A stretch of 64,000 nt of DNA from Deltaproteobacteria bacterium (GTDB lineage Bacteria; Desulfobacterota; Desulfobacteria; Desulfobacterales; Desulfobacteraceae). The stretch is taken from the NCBI GenBank assembly GCA_013151635.1, contig JAADHV010000086.1:62001-126000 (forward strand), in the 5' to 3' direction. The position numbers were made by a program, and so were the translations under genes. Shown piece after piece: positions 38,571 through 53,460 of the stretch; within the stretch, counting starts at the first letter, position 1, and every line of letters starts with the position of its first letter. The notes under the pieces are model-generated. The model worked only from the letters and a program-made list of their open reading frames with translations, did not search any database and was not told the origin of the DNA.

Positions 38571-38590
38571 ACATCTAAAAAGGATTGAGG

Positions 38591-39355
38591 ATGACAGATA
38601 AAAAGTATTATAGAATTGCCTCCTTGGAAAAGGGAATCAGGATTCTTGAACTGCTGGCCGAGCATGGAGAGTTAAGCGTCAGCGAGGCAGCCAGGCTGAT
38701 GGATACAAATCGTGCCGGAAGCCATCGGTTCATTTCCACATTAAAGGATCTTGGGTATGTTGAGAAAAATGACAGCAATAAATATCAACCGACACTTAAA
38801 ATCATGAAACTGGCTATGAAAGTGGCCAACCGGTTTGAAATTCGCCGGATCGCCAGACCATATATGCACAAACTTTCCATGGCGTACAAGGAAACCATCA
38901 ACTTGGGATTTTTTAAAAATAAGGAAATCATCCATATTGACAAAATTGACAGCCTTGAGGTATTGAGAATGGATTCTGCATTGGGGGATAAAGCGCCTGC
39001 CTATTGCACAGCTCTTGGAAAAGCCATACTGGCCTTTCTACCGGATCATGAGCTGGAACACTACCTTGAGAACACAAAATTCAAACAGCTTACCCCCAAT
39101 ACAATCACGGATAAAGAAGAATTCCTGTCCGAGCTGTCCAGAATTCGACAGAACCGATATGCCATTGATGATGAAGAAATGACCTTTGGGCTTCGATGTA
39201 TTGGGGCTCCTATTTTTGATCATAACTCTTATCCTGCCTATGCATTGAGTATTTCAGGACCTTCTATGCGGCAGACCCACCGAACACTTGAGGAAATGAA
39301 AACAGATATTTTACAAGCAGCTTCCGAATTATCCCGTAAAATGGGTACTCCTTAA
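38591..39355 (+). CDS. IclR family transcriptional regulator of the solute-catabolism island
   Basis: 254 aa from the ATG at 38591 (AGGATTGAGG directly upstream; the TTG two codons earlier is less likely). N-terminal winged helix about residues 8-70 (KGIRILELLAEHGELSVSEAARL; RFISTLKDLGYVEK) and an effector domain about 80-250 with YCTALGKAILAFLP and IGAPIFDHNSYPAYALSISGP, as in IclR proteins sensing small carboxylates. It is followed 170 bp downstream by the long catabolic operon on the same strand. Known ectoine clusters use EnuR (MocR type); an IclR regulator here would be a different solution. Confidence 0.9.
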   Translation: MTDKKYYRIASLEKGIRILELLAEHGELSVSEAARLMDTNRAGSHRFISTLKDLGYVEKNDSNKYQPTLKIMKLAMKVANRFEIRRIARPYMHKLSMAYKETINLGFFKNKEIIHIDKIDSLEVLRMDSALGDKAPAYCTALGKAILAFLPDHELEHYLENTKFKQLTPNTITDKEEFLSELSRIRQNRYAIDDEEMTFGLRCIGAPIFDHNSYPAYALSISGPSMRQTHRTLEEMKTDILQAASELSRKMGTP

Positions 39356-39441: not shown

Positions 39442-39480
39442 TGTCACATAATGCAAACAGTTGTCACATATTACGTGACA
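39442..39480. promoter_or_regulatory. candidate IclR operators in the panB-like promoter
   Basis: A perfect inverted repeat TGTCAC-N7-GTGACA (39462-39480) plus a direct copy TGTCACATA at 39442, 45-85 bp before the first gene of the operon. The half-site recurs before the iclR-type gene. AT-rich TATTTACG and TATTGTTAAAT segments around it would suit the promoter. Confidence 0.6.
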
Positions 39481-39525: not shown

Positions 39526-40389
39526 ATGGGTAATAAAAAGCTAACAAGATGGGATCTTCAAAAAATGAAGGAGTCCGGTGAAAATGCAGCATGGATCACT
39601 GCATATGATTACTGGAACGCATCCTTTGCAGAAAAAGCCGGCATGGATATGATTCTGGTCGGAGATTCACTGGGAATGTGTGTTTATGGCTATGAAAGCA
39701 CAGTACCTGTTACCATGGAGCAATGTATTTATCATTCAGAAGCGGTTCGCAGGGCTGCAAAAAATACATTTATCGTCGGTGATATGCCTTTTCTTTCTTA
39801 TCAGGTTAGTATTGAAAACGCGGTATTGAATGCCGGTAGATTCCATAAAGAAGCTGGCGTGGACGCCATCAAGCTCGAGGGTGGCAAACGGGTCTGCCCT
39901 CAAATCCGGGCAATCACAGATGGCGGGATGTTGGTAATGGGGCATATTGGTCTGACCCCCCAGAGTTCAGGCCAGTTAGGCGGATTTAAAGCTCAGGGAA
40001 GAACCGCAGATGCCGCCTTTGAGTTGATTGAAGACGCTGAAGCGATTCAGGAAGCAGGCGCTTTTGCACTGCTGGTGGAAGCGGTGCCCCCGGAAGTCTG
40101 TAATATTATCAGGAAAACATTGACTATCCCTGTATACAGTATTGGAGCCGGTATTGATGCCGACGGTCAGTTGATGATTTCTTCCGATGTGGCAGGGGTT
40201 TTTCAGGCCTTTACCCCTAAATTTGTAAAAAAGTATGAAAACCTTGCAGACAAAACGATTAAAGCCTTTTCAGATTACAGAGATGATGTAAAGGAAGGCA
40301 AATTTCCAGCACCGGAACATACTTATAAAATGGTTGATGGCGAATTGGATAAACTTAATAACAAATTTAAAAAAAGGATAATCACATGA
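39526..40389 (+). CDS. PanB-like hydroxymethyltransferase in the catabolic island
   Basis: 287 aa, PEP mutase/PanB superfamily TIM barrel. Family motifs are DMILVGDSLGMCVYGYEST, VGDMPFLSYQ, DAIKLEGGK and ALLVEAVPPEV; the Asp, Asp and Glu ligands for Mg and the catalytic Glu of ketopantoate hydroxymethyltransferase are all in place. PanB normally adds a C1 unit from methylene-tetrahydrofolate to a 2-oxo acid. No panC or panD is nearby; instead it opens an operon of amidohydrolases, a transaminase and a transporter. It may run in reverse, releasing a C1 unit, or act on another 2-oxo acid. Good ribosome-binding site (TGGAGGT). Overlaps the next gene by 4 bp. Confidence 0.82.
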   Translation: MGNKKLTRWDLQKMKESGENAAWITAYDYWNASFAEKAGMDMILVGDSLGMCVYGYESTVPVTMEQCIYHSEAVRRAAKNTFIVGDMPFLSYQVSIENAVLNAGRFHKEAGVDAIKLEGGKRVCPQIRAITDGGMLVMGHIGLTPQSSGQLGGFKAQGRTADAAFELIEDAEAIQEAGAFALLVEAVPPEVCNIIRKTLTIPVYSIGAGIDADGQLMISSDVAGVFQAFTPKFVKKYENLADKTIKAFSDYRDDVKEGKFPAPEHTYKMVDGELDKLNNKFKKRIIT

Positions 40390-41333
40390 GTGAAGTGCTA
40401 AATACAATCAGAAATTTCATGGAAAAAGAGGGAATTCCAGGACGGGACGGATATGAACTTGCTGCATCGGGCAAGACATTTCCCGACGGAGCAAATTTCA
40501 GGATAGAAATTGCCGGCGTTGAACGTGGCACCACAATGGAGGCCATGATCAAAGAATCTCATAAAAGAAATGTCGTTATTCACCGCGCCATTGCAGCGGT
40601 TGGAGGTTCCACTTATTGTGATGCCCAGGAATTAAAAGATATGGCCCAGATGGCCAAAGACGAAAACATTGAAATCATTATGACCGTTGGCCATCGAAAA
40701 GGATGGGACACCGGTGCAAAGGAATCCTTTACCTCAGAAGGCCAAATGCAGGGATTCCGTCTCAGAGGATCAGACAATATTTCCTATCATATTGCCGATA
40801 TCATGCGAAGCATTGAGGCCGGGTTCAGAGGATTTCTTGTCTATGATGAAGGCGTGCTGTTTATCCTCAATAAAATGAGAGCAGAAGGTCTGATCCCTGC
40901 TGAAACCATTTTTAAATTTTCCGTATTCGGCGGATACTGTAGTGCAGCCGGTGCAAAAGTCATTGAAAGCATGGGTGCCAACTCGCTGAACCCCATTTCC
41001 GATATTTCCCGGCCCATCCTGTCCTCCATCCGTCAGGCAGTGGATATCCCTCTGGATGTTTACATCATCGTGGTTAATTCCTTTGGCGGTAACTTCAGGG
41101 CCTATGAAGCTCCGGAAATCGCAAAAGTGGCCTCACCCTGCTATTTCAAATTCGAGCCCGGTACATCTGAATCAGAAATTTACATGCCCTGGATTGCAGA
41201 AGAATGGCATGCAAATTTCATTGAGCAAAAAGTCAAAATTGCCTCAATCGTCATGGAAATTATGGATGAACATGCTCCTGAGATGCTGACCTCTCCCAAA
41301 GGTGCCAAAGATCTGGTCCTGACAAAACCCTGA
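40386..41333 (+). CDS. uncharacterised conserved protein paired with the PanB-like enzyme (TIM-barrel-like)
   Basis: 315 aa, soluble. Not assigned to a family with confidence. The alternation of strands and helices, with patches IEIIMTVGHRKGWDTGAKE, EAGFRGFLVYDEGVLFIL, FSVFGGYCSAAGAKVIESMG and LDVYIIVVNSFGGNFRAYE, suggests an alpha/beta barrel, possibly distantly U32-peptidase-like. Conserved-looking His, Asp and Glu at strand ends would suit an enzyme. ATG lies inside the last codons of the panB-like gene (ATGAGTGAA after GGATAATCAC), so the two are translationally coupled and probably act on the same metabolite. Function unknown. Confidence 0.75.
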   Translation: MSEVLNTIRNFMEKEGIPGRDGYELAASGKTFPDGANFRIEIAGVERGTTMEAMIKESHKRNVVIHRAIAAVGGSTYCDAQELKDMAQMAKDENIEIIMTVGHRKGWDTGAKESFTSEGQMQGFRLRGSDNISYHIADIMRSIEAGFRGFLVYDEGVLFILNKMRAEGLIPAETIFKFSVFGGYCSAAGAKVIESMGANSLNPISDISRPILSSIRQAVDIPLDVYIIVVNSFGGNFRAYEAPEIAKVASPCYFKFEPGTSESEIYMPWIAEEWHANFIEQKVKIASIVMEIMDEHAPEMLTSPKGAKDLVLTKP

Positions 41334-41358: not shown

Positions 41359-42525
41359 ATGAATATTGAAAAATTATTTGCCAAACGGAATGCAGGGGTT
41401 GAATGGTCCGGTATCCGCATCATGTTTGCCATGGCTGATAAAATAGATGGGGTGACCAACCTGGGTATCGGCCAGCCGGATTTTGACACACCGATCCATA
41501 TACGAGATGCTGCCAAAAGGGGCCTTGATCAGGGGTTTACACGGTATCCCCCGGCTGCAGGCTTTCAGGATTTGCGAGAAGCTGTGGCCAGAAAAGTTGA
41601 GGCGGAAAACAAATTGCAGGCAGACCCGGACTCTGAAATATTTATCAGCGTGGGGGCTATGCAGGGAATCTTTAATGTCATGCTTCATCTTGTCAATCCT
41701 GGAGACGAAGTCATCGTGGTAGACCCAGGGTATGATTATTATTCCCAGATCCGTTTATTCGGCGGTGTACCGGTCAGGGTAGCGGTCAAAGAAGAAAATC
41801 GTTTCAAGATTGATCCGGAAGACGTTAAAAAAGCAGTTACTCTTAAAACTAAGGCCATTATCCTGAATACACCATCAAATCCTACAGGTGCGGTATTTGA
41901 TAGAGAAATCTTAGAACAAATTGCGATTATTTGTAAAGAACACGAGATTATGGTCATTTCAGACGAACCCTATGAACATATTCTGTTTGACGGGAATGAA
42001 CATGTTTCCATTGGGTCTTTTGATGGCATGAAAGATTTGACAGTTTCCATTTACACGCTTTCAAAATCCTATGCTATGACGGGTTGGAGAGTCGGATATG
42101 TGGTGGCCAACAAAGCTGTCATCGCTGAAATGGAAAAGCTTATGGAACATATGGTGTCCGGGGTGACAGCCGTTGCCCAGCGGGCCGCCCTTGCAGCCAT
42201 TACCGATTCCCAGGATTGTGTCAAACAGATGGTGGAGCGGTATGCCAAACGAAGGGAATTGATGTATAACGGACTCAACAATATAAAAGGTATTTCCTGC
42301 ATCAAGCCGGAATCCACTTTTTATGCATTCCCCAATGTCTCTTCTTTCGGGATGTCATCCTGGGATTTTGCAAAATATATGGTCAACGAGCATAAATTGG
42401 CCCTTTTACCGGGTTCCATATTTGGAGAAAATGGAGAAGGGTTTCTAAGGCTCTCCTTTGCCACAAGTTCCCGGAATATTGAAACAGCACTGAAAAAGTT
42501 GGAAAAAGGTATTGCAGGCATATAG
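41359..42525 (+). CDS. class I/II pyridoxal-phosphate aminotransferase
   Basis: 388 aa, fold type I aminotransferase of the AspC/alanine group. PLP-lysine in TLSKSYAMTGWRVGY (about residue 237), the cofactor-binding NTPSNPTGAVFD and DEPYEHILFD motifs, an N-terminal substrate stretch LGIGQPDFDTPIHI, and the terminal LRLSFATS arginine motif. In this island it could transaminate L-2,4-diaminobutyrate or aspartate. The classical ectoine route uses a class III enzyme (DoeD), so this assignment is tentative. Gap of 25 bp from the upstream gene. Confidence 0.9.
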   Translation: MNIEKLFAKRNAGVEWSGIRIMFAMADKIDGVTNLGIGQPDFDTPIHIRDAAKRGLDQGFTRYPPAAGFQDLREAVARKVEAENKLQADPDSEIFISVGAMQGIFNVMLHLVNPGDEVIVVDPGYDYYSQIRLFGGVPVRVAVKEENRFKIDPEDVKKAVTLKTKAIILNTPSNPTGAVFDREILEQIAIICKEHEIMVISDEPYEHILFDGNEHVSIGSFDGMKDLTVSIYTLSKSYAMTGWRVGYVVANKAVIAEMEKLMEHMVSGVTAVAQRAALAAITDSQDCVKQMVERYAKRRELMYNGLNNIKGISCIKPESTFYAFPNVSSFGMSSWDFAKYMVNEHKLALLPGSIFGENGEGFLRLSFATSSRNIETALKKLEKGIAGI

Positions 42526-42604: not shown

Positions 42605-43780
42605 ATGGCCTTATTCAGTAAAAATGAATTCCTTGAACGGATCACCCAAACCAAGGAGTCCATGGCAAAAAAAGAAATTGAAATTCTTGTGGTGTGTGAT
42701 CCGGCCAACATGAATTATCTCACAGGGTATGATGGCTGGTCTTTTTACGTGCCCCAGGCAGTCCTGGTGATTGACGACCAGGAAGAACCCATCTGGATTG
42801 GCAGGGGTATGGATACTAACGGGGCCAAATATACTGCTTTTATCCGGCCGGAGAATATGATCGGGTATCCAGATGATTATGTCCAGTCTGATATTAAACA
42901 TCCTATGAATTTTGTTGCAGACATTATCAAAGAAAAAGGATGGGCCCAAAAAAATATCGGTGTTGAAACCGATGCCTATTATTATACTGCAAGAAGCGAC
43001 AATGAACTGAAAAAAAGCCTTGGAAAAGATACTCTTCTGGATGGCAACCTGCTGGTCAACTGGGTTCGGCTTGTCAAATCAGATGCAGAGATCGAGATGA
43101 TGAAACAGGCTGGTAAAATTGCTGAAAATGTCATGTCAACCGCCCTTTCAAAACTCGCCCCCGGTATTCGGGAATGTGATGCCGTGGCTGCTGTCTACCA
43201 GGCCCAGGTCACAGGCACAAAGGATCTTGGCGGTGATTATCCATCCATTGTTCCCATGATGCCCACCGGTGAAAAAACCAGTGCACCGCACCTGACATGG
43301 ACGGATGAACCCTATCAAACCGGCCAGGCCGTTAACCTCGAACTGGCTGGCTGCCGCCATCGTTATCATTGCCCCATTGCCCGAACCGCCTTTATCGGCA
43401 ACAATCCCCCGGAAAAACTCAAAGAACTTGCTGATATTACCGTTGAAGGATTGAACCTGACCCTGGACGTCATCAAGCCCGGCCTTAAAGCGGAAGATGT
43501 AGAGCGTGTCTGGCGGGAGCATATTGCCAAAAAGGGATTCGAAAAAGAATCCCGCATCGGGTATCCCATTGGGCTGAACTATCCCCCGGACTGGGGCGAG
43601 CATACTGCTAGTCTTCGACCCGGCGATAAAACTATTTTGAAACCCAATATGACCTTTCACATGATCCTGGGAATGTGGATGGACAATTACGGATTTGAAT
43701 GTTCAGAGTCCTTCCGGGTTACGGAAAACGGGGCAAAGACTTTTGCCCGGTTTGAACGAAAACTTTTTGTCATTGAATAA
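42605..43780 (+). CDS. ectoine hydrolase-like M24 family protein (DoeA/EutD type)
   Basis: 391 aa, creatinase/prolidase fold. The N-terminal part has DPANMNYLTGYDGWSFYV (about residues 34-51) and PIWIGRGMDTNGA, typical of DoeA/EutD. In the M24 domain the metal-ligand positions of true peptidases are replaced (LELAGCRHRYHCPIART in place of a D...D pair), as in metal-independent creatinase and ectoine hydrolase. It should open the ectoine ring to N-acetyl-2,4-diaminobutyrate. The motif GYPIGLNYPPDWGEH near residue 320 is intact, in contrast with the second copy at 49170. Good ribosome-binding site (AGGAGA). Confidence 0.82.
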   Translation: MALFSKNEFLERITQTKESMAKKEIEILVVCDPANMNYLTGYDGWSFYVPQAVLVIDDQEEPIWIGRGMDTNGAKYTAFIRPENMIGYPDDYVQSDIKHPMNFVADIIKEKGWAQKNIGVETDAYYYTARSDNELKKSLGKDTLLDGNLLVNWVRLVKSDAEIEMMKQAGKIAENVMSTALSKLAPGIRECDAVAAVYQAQVTGTKDLGGDYPSIVPMMPTGEKTSAPHLTWTDEPYQTGQAVNLELAGCRHRYHCPIARTAFIGNNPPEKLKELADITVEGLNLTLDVIKPGLKAEDVERVWREHIAKKGFEKESRIGYPIGLNYPPDWGEHTASLRPGDKTILKPNMTFHMILGMWMDNYGFECSESFRVTENGAKTFARFERKLFVIE

Positions 43781-43799: not shown

Positions 43800-44990
43800 A
43801 TGGACTATATACAAAAAAGAATCCAGGAACTCACATATGAAGTCATTGAACTGAGGCGTAATTTTCATATGTACCCGGAACTGGGGTTCAAGGAATTTGA
43901 GACTGCCAGTATAATTGAAAATTATCTTCAAAACCTCGGATTTGAGACCCTTCGAATAGCTAAAACAGGGGTTGTTACAATTCTTGACAGCGGTAAACCC
44001 GGTCCTGTTCTAATGCTCAGAGCGGACATGGATGCCCTGCCGGTAACCGAGGCCAATGAAGTTGATTACAAGTCAAAAAACGATGGTATTATGCATGCTT
44101 GCGGCCATGATTCCCACATGGCAATGCTCTTGGTTGCGGCAAAAGTTCTCAAAGAAAACCAGGCCTTGCTTTCCGGTAAGATAAAATTTGTATTCCAGCC
44201 TGATGAAGAGATCGCAGGTGCTGCCAAAATGGTAGATGAAGGTATCCTTAAATCCCCTGCAGTGGATGCGGTGATGGGTATTCATATCTGGAGCTTGATT
44301 CCATCGGGCAGAGTTTCCATCACACCTGGTGTTGTCATGGGGGGTATGGATGTCTTTAAAATGAGGGTTATAGGCAAAGGCGGGCACACCGGTTATCCCC
44401 ATGAGGCGGTTGATCCTGTTATTGCGGCTGCTAATATTATCCAGACGGTCCAGACCATTCAGACCCGGGAAATGGATGCACAAAAACCTGTCGTCATCAT
44501 GTTCGGCAAACTTAATGCCGGTAAAAAATCAAATATCATCCCCGAAGAAGTTTATTTGGAAGGGACCATCCGTTTTCTCCACGATGCAGCACCGGATGAC
44601 GATGACAATCCGGCTAAACGATTTATCCGGATCAGTGAAGCCATCTGTCAGGCACATCAATGTACCTGCGACATAGAGATCGAACATGAAAACATTCCCC
44701 TGGTCAATGACAAAAAGATGACGGCCTTTGCTAAAAAGACAGCTGCCAAGGTGTTTGGCAGTATGGATGTTATTGATCCAGGCCGGTATATAACCAGTGA
44801 AGATTTCAGCGAGTATACATCCCGTGTGCCAGGTGTTTTTATTTTTCTGGGATGTGCTGACCCAGAAAAGGGAACTGATATTCCCTTGCACAATCCAAAC
44901 TTTAATATCGACGAAGACGTTTTAGTGAAAGGAGTGGAATTGCATGTTACAGGTGCCTTAACCTTTTTGACCCGCTCAGGTAAAGCTTAG
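43800..44990 (+). CDS. M20 family amidohydrolase
   Basis: 396 aa dinuclear zinc amidohydrolase of the hippurate/aminoacylase type. Metal and catalytic motifs: ADMDALPV, HACGHDSHMAML, QPDEEIAGAAKM, and the dimerisation-domain KGGHTGYPHEAVDP; terminal GCADPEKGTDIPLHNPNF. In known ectoine clusters the N-acetyl-diaminobutyrate deacetylase DoeB/EutE belongs to the AstE/aspartoacylase family, so this enzyme may be a non-homologous replacement that removes the acetyl group. It sits 19 bp after the ectoine-hydrolase-like gene. Confidence 0.9.
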   Translation: MDYIQKRIQELTYEVIELRRNFHMYPELGFKEFETASIIENYLQNLGFETLRIAKTGVVTILDSGKPGPVLMLRADMDALPVTEANEVDYKSKNDGIMHACGHDSHMAMLLVAAKVLKENQALLSGKIKFVFQPDEEIAGAAKMVDEGILKSPAVDAVMGIHIWSLIPSGRVSITPGVVMGGMDVFKMRVIGKGGHTGYPHEAVDPVIAAANIIQTVQTIQTREMDAQKPVVIMFGKLNAGKKSNIIPEEVYLEGTIRFLHDAAPDDDDNPAKRFIRISEAICQAHQCTCDIEIEHENIPLVNDKKMTAFAKKTAAKVFGSMDVIDPGRYITSEDFSEYTSRVPGVFIFLGCADPEKGTDIPLHNPNFNIDEDVLVKGVELHVTGALTFLTRSGKA

Positions 44991-45042: not shown

Positions 45043-46104
45043 ATGGACACAAAATTTAAAAAATTAACCGTTTTATGCATCGCAGTCATCTTCTGTTTGC
45101 TTTCATCACATGCCGGTGCCGCCAATTATACAGGAAAGCTGATTAAAGCAAAGTTGGCATCAGAAGAAATCGAAGGTGATTTTATGACCGTCTGGGCCAG
45201 AAATTTTTCAGATCACATGAAAAACTGGTCAGACAACAAAATTGATGTAAATGTTTATCCTTATGGGACTCTGGGTGCCACCGGTGATATCAATGAACTG
45301 GCCCAAATGGGTGTTGTTCAATATGTATTTTCCGATTATGCCTGGATCTCTTCCTTTGTTCCCCAGGGTCAGGTTCTGGCTCTGAACTATCTTTTTCCCA
45401 CTGAAAAAGTGCCTGAGGTGATTGACTGGATTGTTCGAAACGGTGAGTTTTTTCCTCTTATGGAAAAAGCCTTTAGAAAAAATGATCTTGTCCCTCTTTC
45501 CATCATGTTTGAAGGATGGCAGTGGATGACCACAAAAATCGAAGTCAAGTCCCTTGAAGATATCAAAGGACTTAAACTTCGGGTTATGTCATCAAAACTA
45601 TTGGTGGAAGATTATAAAGCCTATGGTGCATCACCGACTCCAATGAGTTATGGTGAAGTTTACTCAGGGCTGCAGATGGGATTAATCGACGGCCAGGTAA
45701 ACCCCCTGTTTGCCATCAACAGCATGAAATTTTATGAAGTTCAAAACTATTGTACCCAGCTGAAAAGTGAACCATTTCTTGGTATTCCCACGGTTAATAA
45801 GAAATTTTTTGATTCTCTTCCTAAAAATGTTCAGGACGAAATGCGCAAGTTCTGGATCAATGCCATTATCCCTGCCGGAAACTGGATCATGCAAAAAAAT
45901 GCAGATGACAAGGAAAAAATGTTGAAAGCCAAACCAGGACTTAAATTTAATGTTTTAGATGATGCAACCATTGCCACGTTCAAAGCACAGGCCCAGACAG
46001 TTTATCCTAAATTTACCGAAATTGGTGGAGAGGGTTCACAAGAGATCCTGAATGCATTGCTTTCCGATATTGAGAAAGCTAAAAAAGCCCTGAATGTGAA
46101 ATAA
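45043..46104 (+). CDS. TRAP transporter substrate-binding protein (DctP type)
   Basis: 353 aa periplasmic binding protein with a Sec signal peptide (residues 1-27, ending SHAGAANY). The DctP hallmarks are the central DIKGLKLRVMSSKL stretch with the carboxylate-binding Arg (about residue 184), and the YGEVYSGLQMGLIDGQVNPLF motif. By position it should capture the solute degraded by the island (ectoine or hydroxyectoine, compare UehA/TeaA). Strong ribosome-binding site GGAGA. A hairpin separates it from dctQ, allowing the binding protein to be made in excess. Confidence 0.9.
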   Translation: MDTKFKKLTVLCIAVIFCLLSSHAGAANYTGKLIKAKLASEEIEGDFMTVWARNFSDHMKNWSDNKIDVNVYPYGTLGATGDINELAQMGVVQYVFSDYAWISSFVPQGQVLALNYLFPTEKVPEVIDWIVRNGEFFPLMEKAFRKNDLVPLSIMFEGWQWMTTKIEVKSLEDIKGLKLRVMSSKLLVEDYKAYGASPTPMSYGEVYSGLQMGLIDGQVNPLFAINSMKFYEVQNYCTQLKSEPFLGIPTVNKKFFDSLPKNVQDEMRKFWINAIIPAGNWIMQKNADDKEKMLKAKPGLKFNVLDDATIATFKAQAQTVYPKFTEIGGEGSQEILNALLSDIEKAKKALNVK

Positions 46105-46113
46105 TCTTAAAAT

Positions 46114-46160
46114 AGAGCAGTACCCGGTACAATGGTGTCGGGGCTGTTCTGTATTTTTAT
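46114..46160 (+). terminator. partial terminator/attenuator between dctP- and dctQ-like genes
   Basis: AGAGCAG-TA-CCC pairs with GGGG-CTGTTCT (46114-46125 with 46140-46150; one G-T pair), followed by GTATTTTTAT. A leaky terminator at this point would lower dctQ/dctM expression relative to dctP. Confidence 0.55.
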
Positions 46161-46174
46161 ATAAGAGGCTTATT

Positions 46175-46753
46175 ATGAATGAAAAAAATAAGGATAGCAC
46201 CTCCTTAAGCCCTTTTCAAAAATTTAATAAATACACAGGGCGTGTGGTTAACAGCGTGGAAGTCTCCATATTGGTTTTCTGTGTCGCTGCCCTGGGAATT
46301 CTGCTCATTGTCAATGTATTTGCACGCACGTTTTTTGAAAGTATCTACTTTACCGAGGAAATCTCTAAATTTCTGGTGATGCTCACAACCTTCACCGGTG
46401 TGAGTTACGGCGTAAGAAAGGCAAGGCATATCAGGATGGGTGCATTTTTAGATGCCATGCCGCCAAAAATGGAAAAAATCTTTATTATTATTATTTCCCT
46501 GATTTCCGCCATTGTCATGGGAATCATGTGCTGGGCATCGTATGAGTATCTCATCAATGCCATGTCCAAAGGCCATGTGACTGCAGCCTTACGTGTCCCA
46601 AAATGGACATTTTATGTGATCATACCCATCGGGTTCGGCCTTGCCTGTATCCAGTATGTCAGAACGATAATTAAAAATATTACGGAAAAAGATCCCTGGC
46701 AGTCACCAGATCAGCAAAGTGAATACGAAGATGAACAGACAGGAGGTGCTTAA
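46175..46753 (+). CDS. TRAP transporter small membrane subunit (DctQ type)
   Basis: 192 aa with four membrane segments (about 25-48, 60-80, 98-120, 145-168) and the conserved FTEEISKFLVMLTTFTGVSYG and RKARHIRMGAFLD motifs of DctQ. It links to the large DctM subunit, encoded 3 bp downstream, to form the sodium-driven permease. Confidence 0.9.
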   Translation: MNEKNKDSTSLSPFQKFNKYTGRVVNSVEVSILVFCVAALGILLIVNVFARTFFESIYFTEEISKFLVMLTTFTGVSYGVRKARHIRMGAFLDAMPPKMEKIFIIIISLISAIVMGIMCWASYEYLINAMSKGHVTAALRVPKWTFYVIIPIGFGLACIQYVRTIIKNITEKDPWQSPDQQSEYEDEQTGGA

Positions 46754-46756
46754 GTT

Positions 46757-48046
46757 ATGATGCTATTGGGGTTAAGCTTGATTATTATGCTGCTTTTCGG
46801 ATTCCCTTTCATGGTGACGCTTTTGGGATCACTGATACTCTATATTTTTGTTTATATGCCGGACTTTGCCCCCAGGATGATCATTACCATGGTCCAGCAG
46901 GTCATTACCGGGGTCACACCTCCGGCTCTTGTCTGCGTGCCGCTTTTTATCCTGTCGGCCAGTATCATTACCGCAGGAGAGTCGGCAGGCCGGTTGGTCC
47001 GGATGATTAAAGTTTTTGTCGGCCATCTGCCGGGAGGCCTTCTCATCACCACCAATGCCTCATGCACCCTTTTCGGTGCTGTGTCAGGCTCCACACAGGC
47101 CACCGTGGCCGCCATTGGTGGCACCATGCGCCCCATGCTCCTGGATGCAGGATATAAGAGCTCCTTCACGCTCGGGCTGATCATTAATTCCAGTGACATT
47201 GCTTTTTTAATTCCGCCCAGTATCGGGTTCATTGTATACGGGGTTGCCACCAGCACCTCCATCGGCATGCTTTTTCTATCCGGCATTATTCCAGGACTTA
47301 TGATCCTGGTGATGTTTTCCATCTACTGCTATGTGTATTCCAAGATTAAGAAAGTCGGGACCCTGCCCAAGGCAAGCAATGCTGAGCGTTTGACTGCTAT
47401 CAAGGACGGGCTGCCGGTCATGGGATTCCCGTTTATTATTGTGGGGGGTATCTATACCGGAATTTTCAGTCCTACAGAAGCAGCAGCAGCTGCAGTATTA
47501 TATTCCCTGATTCTGGAAGTAATTATTTATAAAAGCTTGACATTTGATATCATTGTTGACGTATTTTTACAGACTGGTGTTATTACCGGGGTTGTCTTCA
47601 TCCTGGTGGGCGCAGGTCAGGCCTTTTCATTTTTAATCGGGTTTTTGCAACTTCCTGATCAATTCCTGCCCCCTCTTTTCGGGACAGCTCCATCTATGCT
47701 CAAGGTTATCGGCATCATTGTTGTTGTCTACTTTGTCGCCTGCATGTTTGTGGATCCTATTGTGGCTATTTTTATCTTAAGTCCAATATTTCAACCCTAT
47801 GTTGTCGGAGCAGGTGTAAATCCAATACTGCTGGGAACCCTTGTCACCCTTCAGGCAGCCATAGGCTCGGCAACCCCGCCGTTTGGCTGTGATATTTTTA
47901 CTGCCCAACTGATCTTCAGGCGGCCATACCTTGAAGTCATTGGCCACTCGTTACCTTTTTTGCTGATTTTGATTCTGGCCACCATTATCCTGATTGCATT
48001 TCCCCAGATTGCTTTGTTTTTACCGAATATGGCATTGGGGGGATAG
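46757..48046 (+). CDS. TRAP transporter large permease (DctM type)
   Basis: 429 aa, about 12 membrane segments. Signature patches are TPPALVCVPLFILSASII, GAVSGSTQATVAAIGGTM, IPPSIGFIVYGVATSTSIG, FSPTEAAAAAVLYSLI and the C-terminal GSATPPFGCDIFTAQ, all close to the DctM consensus. It provides Na-coupled translocation of the ligand delivered by the 45043-46104 protein. Confidence 0.93.
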   Translation: MMLLGLSLIIMLLFGFPFMVTLLGSLILYIFVYMPDFAPRMIITMVQQVITGVTPPALVCVPLFILSASIITAGESAGRLVRMIKVFVGHLPGGLLITTNASCTLFGAVSGSTQATVAAIGGTMRPMLLDAGYKSSFTLGLIINSSDIAFLIPPSIGFIVYGVATSTSIGMLFLSGIIPGLMILVMFSIYCYVYSKIKKVGTLPKASNAERLTAIKDGLPVMGFPFIIVGGIYTGIFSPTEAAAAAVLYSLILEVIIYKSLTFDIIVDVFLQTGVITGVVFILVGAGQAFSFLIGFLQLPDQFLPPLFGTAPSMLKVIGIIVVVYFVACMFVDPIVAIFILSPIFQPYVVGAGVNPILLGTLVTLQAAIGSATPPFGCDIFTAQLIFRRPYLEVIGHSLPFLLILILATIILIAFPQIALFLPNMALGG

Positions 48047-48147: not shown

Positions 48148-49143
48148 ATGAAACTGTCAGACATATCGCTAAAAGAGATTTTCCAGGCGAAAAAAAGGAT
48201 CAAGGCGATGGTGAGACCTACACCGATGATCCCTTCACAAGCCCTTTATGATGTACTGGGTAAAAAAGTCATTCTTAAATTGGAAAATCTCCAGGAAACA
48301 GGATCATTCAAACTCAGGGGGGCTGCAAATGCACTGTTAAGCCTTTCAGACAAACAAAGAGACAAAGGGGTGCTTGCTTTTTCAACCGGGAACCACGGCA
48401 GGGCCGTAGCCTGGGTAGCCCGTCAACTGGGAATCCGGTGTGTGATCTGTCTTTCAAAAAGGGTTCCGGCATATAGAGTGGCTGCTATGGAAAAATTCGG
48501 TGCCCAGGTGATTCAAAAAGGAGACAGTCAGGATGATGCCTATGAAGTGGCTTTAAAACTTGAAAAGGATGAAGAACTTACCATGATAAGCCCGTTTGAT
48601 GACCCGTTTGTCATTGCCGGACAGGGTACCATTGGCCTTGAAATAATACACCATATGCCTGACATAGACACATTGGTGGTCCCGGTGTCAGGTGGCGGCC
48701 TGGCAGCCGGGATTGCCAAAGTTATGAAAACGATTGATCCGTCTATTAAGGTTATCGGTGTCTCCATGGAATGCGCTCCCGCCATGTATCATTCCATCAA
48801 AGCAGGAAAACCGGTTGAAATAGAAGAAAAGGATTCATTGGCAGATGCTTTATTGGGAGGTATCGGGCTTGATAACCAATACTCCTACCCAATGGTTGAG
48901 CAGTATGTGGATACGATTGAACTGGTATCGGAAAAAGAGACCGAACAGGGTATTGTTTTTGCCTGGCAGCATCATGGTATTATGATCGAAGGGGCAGCTG
49001 CCGTTACCTTGTCATGGCTGCTAAAAAAAAAGCTCACAATGATGGGAAACCATATTGCCGGCATCCTTTCCGGCGGAAACATGGATACCACTCTTTTTTA
49101 TAATATTCTTTCCAAATATGTAAGGCCGGAAAAACGTCTTTAG
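48148..49143 (+). CDS. eutB: threonine dehydratase-like PLP enzyme, EutB type
   Basis: 331 aa fold type II PLP enzyme. PLP-lysine in ETGSFKLRGAANALL (about residue 53), the phosphate-binding glycine loop VPVSGGGLAAGIAKVMK and the Asn-containing STGNHGRAVAW. EutB, with EutA and EutC, is held to convert 5-hydroxyectoine towards ectoine in proteobacterial ectoine clusters. A catabolic threonine/hydroxy-amino-acid dehydratase is the alternative, but the neighbouring EutA and EutC homologues favour EutB. Good ribosome-binding site (AGAGGAA). Confidence 0.82.
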   Translation: MKLSDISLKEIFQAKKRIKAMVRPTPMIPSQALYDVLGKKVILKLENLQETGSFKLRGAANALLSLSDKQRDKGVLAFSTGNHGRAVAWVARQLGIRCVICLSKRVPAYRVAAMEKFGAQVIQKGDSQDDAYEVALKLEKDEELTMISPFDDPFVIAGQGTIGLEIIHHMPDIDTLVVPVSGGGLAAGIAKVMKTIDPSIKVIGVSMECAPAMYHSIKAGKPVEIEEKDSLADALLGGIGLDNQYSYPMVEQYVDTIELVSEKETEQGIVFAWQHHGIMIEGAAAVTLSWLLKKKLTMMGNHIAGILSGGNMDTTLFYNILSKYVRPEKRL

Positions 49144-49169: not shown

Positions 49170-50339
49170 ATGCTTCTTTTTGATATTTTGGAATATAAAG
49201 AACGGTTGAATAAAACCAAACAGGCAATGGCAAAAAAAGGACTGGATATACTGATTGTAACAGATCCGGCCAATATGAATTATATCACAGGTTATGATGG
49301 CTGGTCTTTTTATGTTCATCAGGGCCTGATCATATTTATCGATAAGGACCAGCCTATCTGGTTTGGACGAGAGCAAGACAGCAATGGCGCCCGAATCACT
49401 ACCTGGCTGGACGATGAAAATATCATCGGTTATAAGGATCATTATGTTCAGTCACAGACCATCCACCCTTATGATTTTGTATCTGACCTGATCAAGGAAC
49501 ACCAATATGCGAACAAAATCGTTGGTGTTGAAAAGGATAACTATTATTTTACAGCATGTTGTTATGAACATTTGCTAAAAGGACTTCCTCTTGCCAAGAT
49601 TCGGGACGGTGAATTGATAATTAATTGGCTCAGAGTCATCAAGTCTAACAAAGAAATAGATTACATTAAAATGGCTGGAAAAATCCTTGAAAATGTTATG
49701 AAGACTGCTGTAGACCTCATCGAATCGGGTGTTCGAGAAGGGGATGTTGCAGCCCAGGTTTATAAAACCATGATCGCAGGCACACCGGAATTTTCAGGTG
49801 ATTACTCTGCCATCATTCCCATCATTCCGTCCGGCAGAAGGACAACTACCGCTCACCTGTCATGGACCGACAGAAAATATCTAAAAAATGAAATTGTCCT
49901 ATTGGAATTATCCAGATGCAAACACCGGTATCATGCCCCTTTAGCCCGAACCGTTATCACGGGGACCCCATCCCGAGAACTGGATAATATCTCCAAAACC
50001 GTCATTCACGGTCTTAATACCGTGGTGGACTTTATAAAGCCGGGTATCCAGGCCCAGGACATTGAAGCCAAGTGGCGGGATTCCATCTCCGGTTCAAGGG
50101 GGGTTAAAGAATCCAGGATCGGCTATTCTTTCTGAGCAAACTATTCACCGGACTGGGGAGAGCACACCATCAGCCTGCGGCCGGGTGATACAACGGTTAT
50201 TCAACCGGGTATGACCCTGCACATTATGCCGGGCATCTGGACGGATACTATGGGATTTGAATGCAGCGAAGCCATTTATATGACCCGGGACGGATGTGAC
50301 ACCTTTGCTGATATACCCCGGCAATTATTTGAAAAATAA
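49170..50339 (+). pseudogene. second ectoine hydrolase-like M24 gene, interrupted by an in-frame TGA
   Basis: 389 codons paralogous to the gene at 42605 (DPANMNYITGYDGWSFYVHQ, then PIWFGREQDSNGA). The frame is open except for TGA at 50133-50135, within GYSF-TGA-ANYSPDWGEH; the intact paralogue has Gly at that position (GYPI-G-LNYPPDWGEH). The downstream 67 codons remain well conserved and end at TAA 50337. A single GGA to TGA change is the simplest explanation, giving a truncated 321-aa product lacking part of the active-site lid. Readthrough or selenocysteine insertion cannot be excluded but no clear SECIS stem was found. Confidence 0.75.
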
Positions 50340-50354
50340 AAAAAGGAATTTAAC

Positions 50355-51086
50355 ATGTTATATCTCCAGAAATCACAACAGGTCTCTTACGGAGAAGCTA
50401 TTGGTATTCTTTTGCTGGACTCGCCTGTTCCTTTTATCCCGGGCGATGTGGCCAATGCCACAACCTATGATTTCCCGGTACGATTTAAAAAGGTACCCGG
50501 ATTTTCAGTGGAAAAGGCTTTGGGTAGGGATGAGAGCATCTATCCGGATCTTTTGAAAGCTGCCAGGGATCTTAAGGAAAACGGGGTCAGAGCTGTGACC
50601 GGAGATTGCGGTTTTATGGCAGTTCACCAGAACCGTCTAAAGCAGGATCTTGGCATCCCGGTTTTTTTATCCAGCCTTCTCCAGGTTCCCTTTATCCGCC
50701 AGATTATCCCAGATGACAGAAAAATCGGTGTTATCACGGCCAGTAAACAAAACCTGACCCCATCCTTTTTAGAATTAATCGGTATTAAGGATATGTCTGG
50801 TCTTGTGATCGAGGGCCTTGAGAATAGTCCGGAATTCAAGTCAACCGTGTTGGACGAGAAGGGAAGCCTTGATACCGGAAAAATCCAGGCAGAGGTTGTC
50901 AATGCGGCCAAGATCCTTGCCGAAGATGGGAAAAACGTAAATGCTATCCTCATGGAATGCAGTGTGCTTCCCCCTTATGCCCATGCCGTTCATAAGGAAA
51001 CCCGCTTGCCGGTGTTTGATTATATCACCATGATCAATTTTGTTTTCAGTGCTGTCGTTAAAAAGACTTACAGCGGGTTTATGTAA
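50355..51086 (+). CDS. eutA: Asp/Glu racemase-like protein, EutA type
   Basis: 243 aa. Two-domain aspartate/glutamate racemase/arylmalonate decarboxylase fold with the two expected cysteines: TGDCGFMAV (about residue 85) and ILMECSVLPPYAHAV (about 195). EutA homologues belong to the hydroxyectoine branch with EutB and EutC. It follows the interrupted M24 gene by 15 bp and precedes the truncated EutC. Good ribosome-binding site AAAGGAA. Confidence 0.82.
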   Translation: MLYLQKSQQVSYGEAIGILLLDSPVPFIPGDVANATTYDFPVRFKKVPGFSVEKALGRDESIYPDLLKAARDLKENGVRAVTGDCGFMAVHQNRLKQDLGIPVFLSSLLQVPFIRQIIPDDRKIGVITASKQNLTPSFLELIGIKDMSGLVIEGLENSPEFKSTVLDEKGSLDTGKIQAEVVNAAKILAEDGKNVNAILMECSVLPPYAHAVHKETRLPVFDYITMINFVFSAVVKKTYSGFM

Positions 51087-51102: not shown

Positions 51103-51228
51103 ATGAGCGTTCTAATATTAACTGAAAAAGAACTTCGCAATATCTTAAAAATAGACCGCTCCGCCATTGATGCGGTTGCTTGTGGATTTAAACGGCTGTC
51201 CTGGGGGAAAGTGACCATACCGCCCATC
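51103..51228 (+). pseudogene. truncated eutC (ornithine cyclodeaminase/mu-crystallin family), first 42 codons only
   Basis: A good ribosome-binding site (AAAAAAGGAGATT) precedes ATG, and the first 42 codons read MSVLILTEKELRNILKI, then IDAVACGFKRLSWGKVTIPPI, the characteristic N-terminus of EutC/ornithine cyclodeaminase proteins. After PPI the sequence is unrelated, although the frame stays open to 51642 by chance. The NAD-binding domain is absent, so the gene is dead. It is the eroded 3' end of the eutB-eutD2-eutA-eutC block. Confidence 0.75.
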
Positions 51229-51239
51229 AAAAACCGGAC

Positions 51240-51465
51240 TTTTTTTTATAAAACCAGGTCCGAGTGCCTAACACGATTATCAGCGTTTATCCCCTGTATA
51301 ACGGGGAAAGCATCAATGGGGCAATCTGCTTTGTCAAAGACTATGAACGACTTCACCCGCACGGCCAAAAAAGCGGCATCCTCGTCTTCTCCCATCATGA
51401 TTCAGGGAGAAAACCGGCACAGGCAAGGAACTCTTTGCCCAATCCATTTTTTTAAGACATGTAGG
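51240..51465 (+). pseudogene. relic of a sigma-54-dependent activator (PAS end plus Walker A)
   Basis: One frame reads VPNTIISVYPLYNGESINGA and then ICFVKDYERL (PAS end). A second reads KKAASSSSPIMIQGE, and after a one-base insertion in GGAGAAAACC the third frame gives TGTGKELFAQSIF, the NtrC-type Walker A. Everything beyond is missing. The fragment is joined directly to the eutC stump, so a deletion fused the two genes. Confidence 0.7.
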
Positions 51466-51479
51466 AATAAATTGACTGA

Positions 51480-52457
51480 ATGCATTCCCGGGTTCAACAG
51501 AGTCTACACCGATAAGAACCAGGCAGGAAGAGTTTTTTCGAAGCTTCAGCGTAAGGGGGGAATTTTTTCAGGGCCTCTCTGTTTTTCCCGGCTACATCCA
51601 GGTCACAAGACTTATCGGGATTTTCGGAAATACGGATGCTGAACTTTGAGACGTCCTGATACATAGCGTACTGGGTGGCAAGATAAACAGGAAAGATAAT
51701 GATTTTGACACATTTGATCTTTTAAAACACATCAATATTTTCAACAAAAAGTTCCGTAGTCTGGTCCTGTTTTCTGATTTTCTCAAGATCATCGATAATA
51801 ATCAAAAGGTTTTTCCCTGAATTCTGCTGTTCTTTATAAGCACCGATAATGTCGTTTGCTTTCTCAACCAGTTCAAGCTTATCAAGGGTAAATATTTCCC
51901 TTACGGTTTTCCTGTTTGATTTCTCAATTTTAAATTTTGCAAAGAATCCTGAATCAAATTTAATCAGGCTCCAAAAAGGCAATTTGGCACGAAAAGATAG
52001 ATCTCCGCCTCCCTGGTCTGATTTAGGCTAATTTTTTTTATCTGTTTTCAAGTTTCCCCAGTTTCTTTTTTTTCAGATCCTCAAGTTCTTCCAAAAATTT
52101 CTTTTCAAGCCTGGAATCCCAGTTAACAATAGTATAGCCGATCATCAGCATGACATCAATAATATCAATATCATCCAGCTTGAAAACATCTCTTCCGTTC
52201 AGGTATTTTATATCATATTTTTTAAAGATAGCTGTATCAGGAAGAAAATTGAGTGCTGTGCTTTTCCCATTGCCAGACTGGCCGGTAACAAAAAACGATT
52301 TGTCCGGGATTAAATTCAGGACCAGGTCTTTTCTCAAGTTTAAAAGATCCTGCTTGTAAATATCAACGTAGAACTCTTTGTTATCCTGATTTAATGGGCT
52401 TTGTGTCTCAAATACCTGGTAGGCCTCTTCAATAGTTGTTGCTTTCTTTAACTCCAT
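51480..52457 (-). pseudogene. degraded P-loop/AAA ATPase gene
   Basis: Reads from ATG 52457 with Walker A FFVTGQSGNGKSTALNF (about residue 54), breaks at 52038, resumes in another frame (LPFWSLIKFDSGFFAKFKIEK; Walker B NLLIIIDDLEKI) and, after a stop at 51722, resumes a third time (CVKIIIFPVYLATQYAMYQ; NREALKKFPP). These three pieces fit one KAP- or AAA_16-like ATPase with two frameshifts. It ends where the sigma-54 relic begins on the other strand. Likely a defence or mobile-element ATPase; not functional as read. Confidence 0.55.
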
Positions 52458-52554
52458 TTGTTCACCAGGGTAATTTCTTGTCAGTCAATTAAACATTCAC
52501 TTAAACCGTCCCTGTCGTTTCAGATAATTTCCCACCGGAATTTCATCGGGTTCC

Positions 52555-53020
52555 AAATTAATCCAGATCTCCCCTTATATCAGCATGAACGGGTGGATGA
52601 TGGTGGAACCAGCCGACATGCCCAGTGATACCGTCCAACTGGACCTGAATTTATCCAATATGCTCCTGTGCGACAAACCCTTCAGAGGAAGCCCTACCTT
52701 TCGCCAGGGTGCTTTGGACGGTATTGAAATGGCCGGCGCCCTGATCGAACTTGCCCGTCACAACCAAGCCTGCGTAGTGGCCTCTCTGATCATGGCCGGT
52801 AACCCTGGACGGAGTCCTGGCCCTTTAAAATGCTGAAATCCTGGCCGGTATCCTGGGGTCTTACATTGCCATGAGTTTTGAAAAATTCCTCGTTGATGAG
52901 GAAACCTGTGGCATGATACAAAGCATGATCAAACAATCTTCTCAAGTCAGGCACTTCCAAAAGACAGGTCATCATGACATCACTCAGCCGCAGGGAACCA
53001 TGGAATCTTTCTATACTTAA
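52555..53020 (+). pseudogene. relic of a trimethylamine/betaine methyltransferase (MttB family)
   Basis: The frame at 52585 reads MVEPADMPSDTVQLDLNLSN, LLCDKPFRGSPTFRQGALDG and VVASLIMAG, matching the central part of MttB-superfamily corrinoid methyltransferases. After a frameshift near 52805 it continues TLDGVLAL-stop-NAEILAGILGSY, where intact homologues have Gln (CAA to TAA), and then jumps to the C-terminal SFEKFLVDEETCGMIQSM. Internal deletions and a nonsense codon make it non-functional. Such enzymes demethylate betaine-type osmolytes, a theme in keeping with the ectoine island. Confidence 0.6.
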
Positions 53021-53074
53021 ATTATTGTTTGTCTTTTTCATCTTTTGTTGCATAGGTTCAACAAATTCTTTATG

Positions 53075-53296
53075 CTATACAACTATATTTAATTCCAAGA
53101 CAGAGTATATTTTAAAATTTACCTTAGAAAGGGATAGTCTTCTTTCTTTCAGGAAATTAATCACTGTCGGTTTAACCACTTTTTCCGGGAGTTCTTTCGA
53201 ACTGGCAGTGATAATAAAATCATTTGCATATCGAATAACGTTGATTTTAGAACTGATGCCACGAGGTCTTCTGGGGTATGGCTTACCATTCTCCAT
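53075..53296 (-). pseudogene. fragment of a group II intron reverse transcriptase
   Basis: 73 codons containing the palm motif region VIRYANDFIITASSKEL (consensus YADDF, here YANDF) and the following helix VKPTVINFLKERRLSLS. The rest of the reverse transcriptase, the maturase domain and the intron ends are not seen. Remnant only. Confidence 0.65.
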
Positions 53297-53460
53297 AAAT
53301 CATGCCGCCAGCCATTTTCCAGAAAAATGTTTTCAAGCTATCCTAACTCGAATCGATAAAAACTAAATAGTCTTGACATAGTATATTTTTTATCATATAA
53401 ATGAACGTGTTCGGTAAATGATCAAGATCACCCAATGTCACTTGAAGGAAGGTATTATAC

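Follow-up and report, generated by a model that had tools for sequence, protein, structure and literature searches.

Background and main finding

EutD and EutE make diaminobutyrate, from which Ruegeria forms aspartate via Atf and Ssd, and the steps of EutABC are given as uncertain in the available part of PMC8739950. Putative ectoine clusters lacking eutE and ssd have been reported from Thermodesulfobacteriota, with Desulfospira joergensenii as the species of Fig. 1D, in a 2026 paper (PMC13188858) in which the words panB and hydroxymethyl are absent from the main text. In a different context, E. coli PanB passes the one-carbon (C1) unit of 4-hydroxy-2-oxobutanoate (HOB) to tetrahydrofolate and frees pyruvate in the synthetic pathway of Bouzon et al. 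(2017), as described in excerpts of PMC6966089; the synthetic HOB one-carbon pathway of Bouzon et al. (2017) is likewise described in excerpts of PMC13279387 and PMC9792984, HOB is made by an aldolase and not by PanB in the synthetic cycles outlined in the available text of PMC8879981 and PMC8224422, and panB of nicotine degraders is mentioned in a pantothenate sense in the part of PMC3891541 at hand. The present study concerns a stretch of 64,000 nucleotides (the window) from a Desulfobacteraceae genome (assembly GCA_013151635.1, contig JAADHV010000086.1, positions 62,001 to 126,000), in which a PanB-like gene is followed directly by the gene of a protein of an unnamed family, referred to here as the partner.

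Judged by the gene families that it contains, the operon holding this pair belongs to the ectoine/hydroxyectoine (eut) type and has no Ssd among its scanned proteins. We propose, as a reading that we hold to be possible at slightly below even, that it is an operon for the anaerobic degradation of ectoine (and, with EutB, hydroxyectoine) in which the partner would feed HOB to a PanB working in reverse. An earlier note, made from the letters of the window alone, had presented the pair as the best candidate for an undescribed pathway, a claim that is not supported for the operon as a whole, given that PMC13188858 (in its accessible portion) has already described clusters of ectoine type from these bacteria as putative. 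The operon type is thus known as putative, and a role for the PanB-partner pair was not found in the open-licence literature: no paper joining ectoine, panB and catabolism, and none on HOB with ketopantoate hydroxymethyltransferase and pyruvate, was found among open-licence papers, which makes for a weak absence in both cases.

The PanB-like gene, its partner and the other PanB copies

The two genes at the centre of this study are the following:
39526-40389, + strand: PanB-like protein of 287 aa, of what we label here the catabolic clade (TIGR00222, PF02548, kept active site, tree)
40386-41333, + strand: the partner, 315 aa, a predicted TIM-barrel protein of an unnamed family (no family match; AlphaFold2 model)

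In profile searches the product of 39526-40389 scored 296.2 bits against TIGR00222 (panB), above the equivalog cut-off of 207.55, and 343.3 bits against PF02548 (cut-off 28.7), which places it in the PanB family. Residues D47, D86, E118, K116, H140, E185 and S48 are kept in an alignment to E. coli PanB (1m3u), and we take them to be the Mg ligands, the base and the substrate contacts. The statement of the earlier note that the Mg ligands and the catalytic Glu are retained agrees with the matches at D47, D86, E118 and E185, with the same presumed roles. Both open reading frames are present as it had listed them, and they share the four bases ATGA at 40386-40389. The genes had been called translationally coupled, which stands as a description of the window but not of the family: none of 38 other PanB-partner pairs overlaps, the spacing being 4-173 nt in 37 of them and 870 nt in one (with the partner start read off the alignment), and translational coupling as a conserved trait is thereby ruled out.

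The genome carries three panB genes, namely that of the window and the copies on C86 and C126, and one panC, on C113. Absence of panC and panD had been noted earlier, and indeed neither occurs among the scanned operon proteins, but panC is present elsewhere in the genome; moreover, the same note had asked for another panB with panC and had held that a single panB together with growth defects cured by pantothenate would speak against its idea, and two further panB genes were found. A tree of 95 PanB proteins separates a 73-row clade from 22 rows with support of 100/100, to be read with a bootstrap that had not settled, a midpoint root and a long branch (L183_bio) on the 22-row side. The 22 rows, which include the C86 copy, carry the tree label "bio" for less than 56% identity to the window PanB, and biosynthetic function is assumed for them. 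The 73-row clade includes the C126 copy and L034, a protein 95% identical to the window PanB that represents it in the tree; the decayed cluster L060 was excluded. With three PanB proteins, one of them in the other clade, and panC elsewhere, the window PanB is by sequence criteria a dedicated paralogue.

These results bear on the possibility that PanB acts in the forward direction, making ketopantoate or another hydroxymethylated 2-oxo acid that the partner would then modify. The protein does pass the panB equivalog model with its active site kept, but the genome has a PanB of the other clade together with panC, and the operon holds uptake and degradation genes, for which reasons we regard a forward role as very unlikely.

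The surroundings of the C126 copy (L065, 6257-10823) comprise its catabolic-clade PanB, an Lrp-like regulator recognised by eye, a 420-aa protein without family and an ELFV dehydrogenase with CBS domains; the 420-aa protein is present in 36 of the 291 genomes of the class. Homology of this protein to the partner was considered and is not claimed, since the two share K177, K255 and further columns in a MAFFT alignment but reach an hhalign probability of only 3.2%.

Conservation of the PanB-partner association

Judged from gene content, the association between PanB and the partner is far from chance and is conserved, and the partner itself occurs in several phyla of anaerobes. It was found in 32 of the 291 genomes of the class, four others of the window's genus among them. 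In a count of PanB of at least 60% identity, in which three distant homologues of the partner (33-39%) were scored as partner-negative, 26 of the 29 genomes with the partner have such a PanB, as do 38 of the remaining 262 (p=1.6e-16). A lack of conserved co-occurrence had been named in the earlier note as a reason to abandon its idea, and the pair does co-occur. At the same identity threshold, in the phylum of an Acetomicrobium genome, PanB is present in 10 of 10 partner genomes against 37 of 139 (p=4.7e-6), with partner relatives of 34-46% scored as negative and the PanB of G396 detected by partial matches only. A scan of the genome collection gave 213 partner relatives, of which 78 distinct loci were taken, and by record names the partner loci include Desulfobacterota groups, Dehalococcoidia, Synergistales, Spirochaetes and Atribacteria.

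At the level of loci, PanB lies within 3 kb of the partner in 42 of 82 distinct partner loci and is missing from that range in 20, a class that required at least 2.5 kb of sequence on both sides of the partner; the other 20 fall into neither class. Among the 53 partner loci with full flanks, PanB (33 loci) and an aminotransferase or amino-acid dehydrogenase (38) were found within 3 kb, and eut genes (39) and an M20 gene (34) within 6 kb. Where deaminating and eut genes are both present (32 of these loci), PanB is within 3 kb in 29, compared with 4 of the 21 others. When a genome lacks PanB in the 3 kb around the partner, it nearly always encodes one of at least 57% identity farther off (18 of 19 genomes), a count that becomes 16 at 60% identity, with one of these (G297) resting on a partial match; at L137 this PanB is farther along the same locus, and L112, from the same assembly as L110, was omitted from the 19.

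The partner is therefore nearly nested within PanB of this type, and that PanB often occurs without the partner. Since PanB alone is far commoner than the partner alone, the partner fits a step upstream of PanB, and the simplest reading of these distributions is that it probably prepares the PanB substrate for one class of starting compounds.

The operon around the pair

From 38585 to 51.6 kb, all the genes listed are on the + strand, from an IclR gene to a broken EutC, and besides the pair the following features were recognised:
38585-39355, + strand: IclR-family regulator, candidate regulator of the operon (PF01614 184.1 bits, PF09339 42.6 bits)
39463-39479, no strand: inverted repeat of 17 bp, GTCAC-N7-GTGAC, in the space separating the IclR gene from PanB, candidate IclR operator
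41359-42525, + strand: class I/II pyridoxal phosphate (PLP) aminotransferase (PF00155 274.1 bits)
42605-43780, + strand: EutD/DoeA-like M24 ectoine hydrolase (phmmer to 6twk; TIGR02993)
43800-44990, + strand: M20 amidohydrolase/deacetylase, probable replacement of EutE (PF01546 149.4 bits; TIGR01891 367 bits)
45043-48046, + strand: TRAP transporter, with DctP at 45043-46104, DctQ at 46175-46753 and DctM at 46757-48046 (PF03480, PF04290, PF06808)
48148-49143, + strand: EutB-like PLP dehydratase (PRK07476 402.3 bits, just under the cut-off of 413)
49170-50339, + strand: second EutD-like M24 gene, a nonsense pseudogene (TIGR02993 339.6 bits up to the stop)
50355-51086, + strand: EutA-like protein of the Asp/Glu racemase family (PRK07475 287.4 bits, above the cut-off of 231)
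51103-51642, + strand: broken EutC remnant (about 42 residues match TIGR02992)

The degradative operon of the earlier note is therefore one of ectoine/hydroxyectoine type, which had gone unrecognised there. No Ssd or other aldehyde dehydrogenase was found among the scanned operon proteins, to which the search for Ssd was confined. One related locus (L080) comes from Desulfospira joergensenii (DSM 10085), the species of Fig. 1D of PMC13188858. Two more cultured bacteria, Desulfosarcina widdelii (L081) and Acetomicrobium hydrogeniformans ATCC BAA-1850 (L118), carry operons of this type. In many relatives an ELFV amino-acid dehydrogenase stands in place of the aminotransferase, identified by Pfam in L051 and by similarity to L051 elsewhere.

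The nature of the substrate deserves consideration. The product of 42605-43780 matches Halomonas DoeA (6twk) over its length (residues 4-389; phmmer E 4.3e-112) and scores 480.6 bits against TIGR02993, below the cut-off of 613, while the M20 protein, at 293.7 bits against the DoeB2 model (cut-off 550), falls short of the EutE/DoeB deacetylases. The true substrate could thus be an ectoine-like compound and not ectoine, with the pair still acting on its 2-oxo acid, an explanation that is compatible with the others discussed here. Scores of EutD, EutB and M20 below the curated ectoine cut-offs and the presence of the partner in non-eut clusters argue for it; the full-length match to DoeA and the publication of such clusters as putative ectoine clusters (PMC13188858, in its accessible portion) argue against it, and we consider it unlikely.

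Many relatives likewise have an IclR gene ahead of PanB or of the partner. In 13 of the 36 distinct ones that combine IclR with the partner, the motif GTCAC-N7-GTGAC recurs no more than 300 nt before PanB, a count that comes with no chance control and in which the 13 are closely related.

The far end of the operon is decaying, as seen from the nonsense stop of the second EutD and the broken EutC. An in-frame TGA at 50133-50135 interrupts the second EutD where 88 of 88 aligned hits from related loci (duplicates included) have Gly, which rules out selenocysteine at this position, and L034 has an uninterrupted EutC relative of 331 aa. The stretch that leads from the broken EutC to a TetR gene (51640-53440) holds debris with reverse-strand fragments and a P-loop-like open reading frame at 52038-52484, as judged by eye. 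Apparent decay was also seen at L060 (G288:C189), where, in a set of IclR, PanB, partner and aminotransferase genes, the partner is interrupted by TGA stops and by breaks of the reading frame.

Family, fold and conserved residues of the partner

The partner had been described in the earlier note as a 315-aa protein that could not be assigned, and the profile searches likewise name no family: there was no Pfam or NCBIfam match at E 0.001 and no meaningful sequence match in the PDB, whether the single sequence (best E 1.1) or a profile built from 59 relatives (best E 0.08) was used. The AlphaFold2 model (pLDDT 90.1, pTM 0.89) is a TIM barrel. Foldseek placed class II aldolases at the top (YdjI, 6ofu, E 7.8e-8, TMq 0.44; TM 0.4-0.5 for these matches), and VIA-align gave Z 15.5 for CutC (rmsd 3.1, 206 aligned) and up to 14.6 for class II aldolases. 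Since CutC and the class II aldolases score alike in VIA-align, the fold names no family for the partner. The likeness to CutC is one of fold only, with no Pfam profile match at E 0.001. The peptidase U32 structure 5d88 was also among the fold matches; the partner has no match to Pfam U32 (PF01136), and two distant relatives reached 13.0 and 16.9 bits against it (cut-off 22.4).

TIM barrels carry their active sites at the strand-end side. Among 59 partner sequences, K177 (end of predicted strand 5) and K255 (end of predicted strand 8) are invariant, as are R104, D154, E155, S179, N202 and E257 just past predicted strands or turns, a placement that would put these eight residues on the active-site side of the barrel. 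E41, H66, R67 and D224 are also invariant and lie inside or at the start of predicted strands. Class II aldolases carry a multi-His metal site; in the partner, H66 is the sole invariant His in the 59 sequences.

These features are relevant to the idea that the partner is itself a retro-aldolase, of the Schiff-base or metal type, that would cleave the 2-oxo acid to give pyruvate plus either formaldehyde or methanimine, PanB then serving in parallel or for salvage. The top Foldseek matches and the two invariant lysines would suit such an enzyme. Nevertheless, TM values are only 0.4-0.5, CutC scores as high as the aldolases, a single His is invariant and PanB would be redundant beside an aldolase, and we therefore give this idea a low probability.

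Distant homologues of 32-38% identity, whose kinship with the partner was confirmed by hhalign (E 2.3e-58), were seen in other surroundings. At L059 the homologue is clustered with phosphonopyruvate decarboxylase, a C-C bond lyase (PF15617) and MmgE/PrpD; at L061, near a 2-phosphosulfolactate phosphatase homologue, and at L062 it lies between a cytidylyltransferase (PF02348) and the ComB-like phosphatase, with a sialyltransferase-type gene nearby by eye, perhaps for a CMP-activated acid of a surface glycan. The ComB neighbour of these homologues suggests that the partner may be ComA-like; no ComA was among the 50 Foldseek and VIA-align matches listed. A second partner subfamily (44-46% identity) occurs in Synergistota genomes, some of them without any PanB match (G421, G436, G453), and its role may for that reason differ from that of the window partner.

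Catabolic-clade PanB outside partner loci

The neighbours of PanB where no partner is present give an exploratory view of the clade. Of 20 catabolic-clade loci outside partner loci, 12 have, in the same orientation and no more than 4.5 kb away, a gene for an aminotransferase, a LarA-type racemase or a GlcD-type protein; among 20 loci from the other clade, 2 do so (p=0.0022). All 40 loci were hand-picked. Two more of the partner-free loci have MttB-like genes only, and six show no sought neighbour (L179 lies near a contig start). A count of 72 of 78 against 3 of 23, from which the decayed L060 was left out, is biased, many of its loci having been fetched via the partner or the 420-aa protein. 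The comparison of 20 with 20 loci suggests that catabolic-clade PanB may sit in the breakdown of amino and hydroxy acids.

Several loci may be noted in their own right. PanB stands beside LarA-like racemases at L183, L185-L190 and L194, with TRAP genes in L185, L186, L189 and L190, and these are candidate loci for the degradation of 2,4-dihydroxy acids. At L176, L178 and L180 PanB of this clade is beside MttB-like methyltransferases (L178 also has an aminotransferase), a candidate route for N-methylated homoserine that is offered as an idea only.

Proposed pathway and its alternatives

The pathway that we propose would begin with uptake of ectoine by the TRAP transporter, followed by ring opening by EutD to N-acetyl-diaminobutyrate and removal of acetate by the M20 enzyme to give diaminobutyrate; these early steps (EutD, deacetylation) follow from what is known of the enzyme families. 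Diaminobutyrate would then be converted to 4-amino-2-oxobutanoate by the aminotransferase, or by the amino-acid dehydrogenase in many relatives. ELFV amino-acid dehydrogenases remove alpha-amino groups, and hence the exchange of the aminotransferase for such an enzyme points to alpha-deamination and a 2-oxo acid, which from diaminobutyrate would be 4-amino-2-oxobutanoate. Elimination of ammonia from a 2-oxo acid that carries its amino group on C4, followed by hydration, can yield HOB, and the partner would catalyze both events, with 2-oxo-3-butenoate as the intermediate. PanB in reverse would finally turn HOB and tetrahydrofolate into pyruvate and methylene-tetrahydrofolate, the latter entering the C1 branch of the Wood-Ljungdahl pathway. 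CdhC/ACS and FTHFS genes are found on one contig, no more than 8 kb apart, providing a route for methylene-tetrahydrofolate into C1 metabolism.

Confidence differs among the parts of this proposal. Reverse action of PanB in this operon seems to us, on balance, somewhat probable. The earlier note had already suggested hydroxymethyl transfer run backwards into the C1 pathway; this is the reading that best fits the operon families, the CdhC/ACS and FTHFS genes and the E. coli PanB precedent, but its direction is something that we infer. HOB as the PanB substrate is a tentative assignment that we place below even odds, and that of the partner as a 4-amino-2-oxobutanoate deaminase/hydratase is doubtful, being less probable again.

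Several observations weigh against the proposal. Among the 62 partner loci that could be evaluated, 20 lack PanB in the surrounding 3 kb, and one of the 19 genomes concerned (that of L098) has no PanB of this type at all. The partner also occurs near PTE, Amidohydro_2, arginase/amidohydrolase or weakly LarA-like genes (L131, L104, L089, L110) and beside hydroxy-acid enzymes at L057 and L101, and such non-eut and hydroxy-acid neighbours are not predicted by a pure 4-amino-2-oxobutanoate deaminase. Substrate identity is affected as well by the sub-cut-off scores of EutD, EutB and M20, which leave room for an ectoine-like compound. As for the partner-free loci, the comparison of 12 of 20 is post hoc, with LarA, GlcD and MttB queries drawn from the inspected loci themselves, and the queries fixed earlier (aminotransferase, amino-acid dehydrogenase, HacidDH, Ldh2) give only 3 of 20 against 2 of 20; several LarA loci form one clade, LarA is a racemase, and the six loci without a sought neighbour count in the same direction.

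Finally, PanB alone might use 4-amino-2-oxobutanoate directly. It would perform a retro-Mannich cleavage with tetrahydrofolate to pyruvate, methylene-tetrahydrofolate and NH3, the partner taking another step, for example isomerising or protecting the reactive 2-oxo acid. The same 2-oxo acid is expected from the aminotransferase or amino-acid dehydrogenase and, by threonine-dehydratase-like chemistry, from EutB, and PanB of this type adjoins an aminotransferase without the partner at L175, L178 and L191. Such chemistry, however, leaves the close tracking of PanB by the partner unexplained, and the presence of PanB beside hydroxy-acid enzymes hints at a hydroxylated 2-oxo acid, so that we consider direct cleavage rather improbable.

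If the HOB route is correct, the anaerobic breakdown of ectoine would have a final stage that bypasses aspartate semialdehyde, a catabolic role in the reverse direction would fall to an enzyme whose usual annotation is vitamin synthesis, and a function could be named for an unannotated protein family of anaerobes. The annotation of panB in these genomes would then not necessarily imply pantothenate synthesis, and engineers, who had to evolve this C1 pathway, would be offered natural enzymes for it. In its widest form, which is unlikely as a whole, the proposal describes a natural counterpart of the synthetic C1 pathway in several phyla of anaerobes, in which catabolic PanB would cleave HOB with tetrahydrofolate and would be fed by ectoine through a new TIM-barrel family; in sister operons the feed would come from 2,4-dihydroxy acids (LarA, GlcD) and possibly also from N-methylated homoserines (MttB with an aminotransferase).

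Comparison with known systems

The window PanB belongs to the same family as ketopantoate hydroxymethyltransferase (EC 2.1.2.11), with scores above the cut-offs and conserved active-site residues, but it differs in belonging to a clade apart from the kin of C86 and in being encoded in an operon of ectoine type that holds neither panC nor panD. The partner shares the TIM-barrel fold of class II aldolases and CutC-like barrels, yet it has no sequence match to them, TM values of 0.4-0.5 and one invariant His, and their function cannot be transferred to it; weak matches to peptidase U32 (PF01136), below the cut-off, are confined to distant partner homologues and the window partner has none. With the eutABCDE-ssd-atf genes of Ruegeria and Halomonas and the clusters of PMC13188858, as far as the available text describes them, the operon shares EutD-, EutB- and EutA-like proteins, an aminotransferase and a TRAP transporter, whereas compared with eutABCDE-ssd-atf it has no Ssd, an M20 enzyme in place of EutE, an IclR regulator and the PanB-partner pair. 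The proposed route resembles the synthetic HOB pathway of E. coli, in the available descriptions, in that a C4 amino acid is transaminated to give a 2-oxo acid, whose C1 unit PanB then transfers to tetrahydrofolate with release of pyruvate. That pathway was engineered and starts from homoserine, whereas the window holds a natural operon of anaerobes that would probably start from diaminobutyrate and that includes an additional protein.

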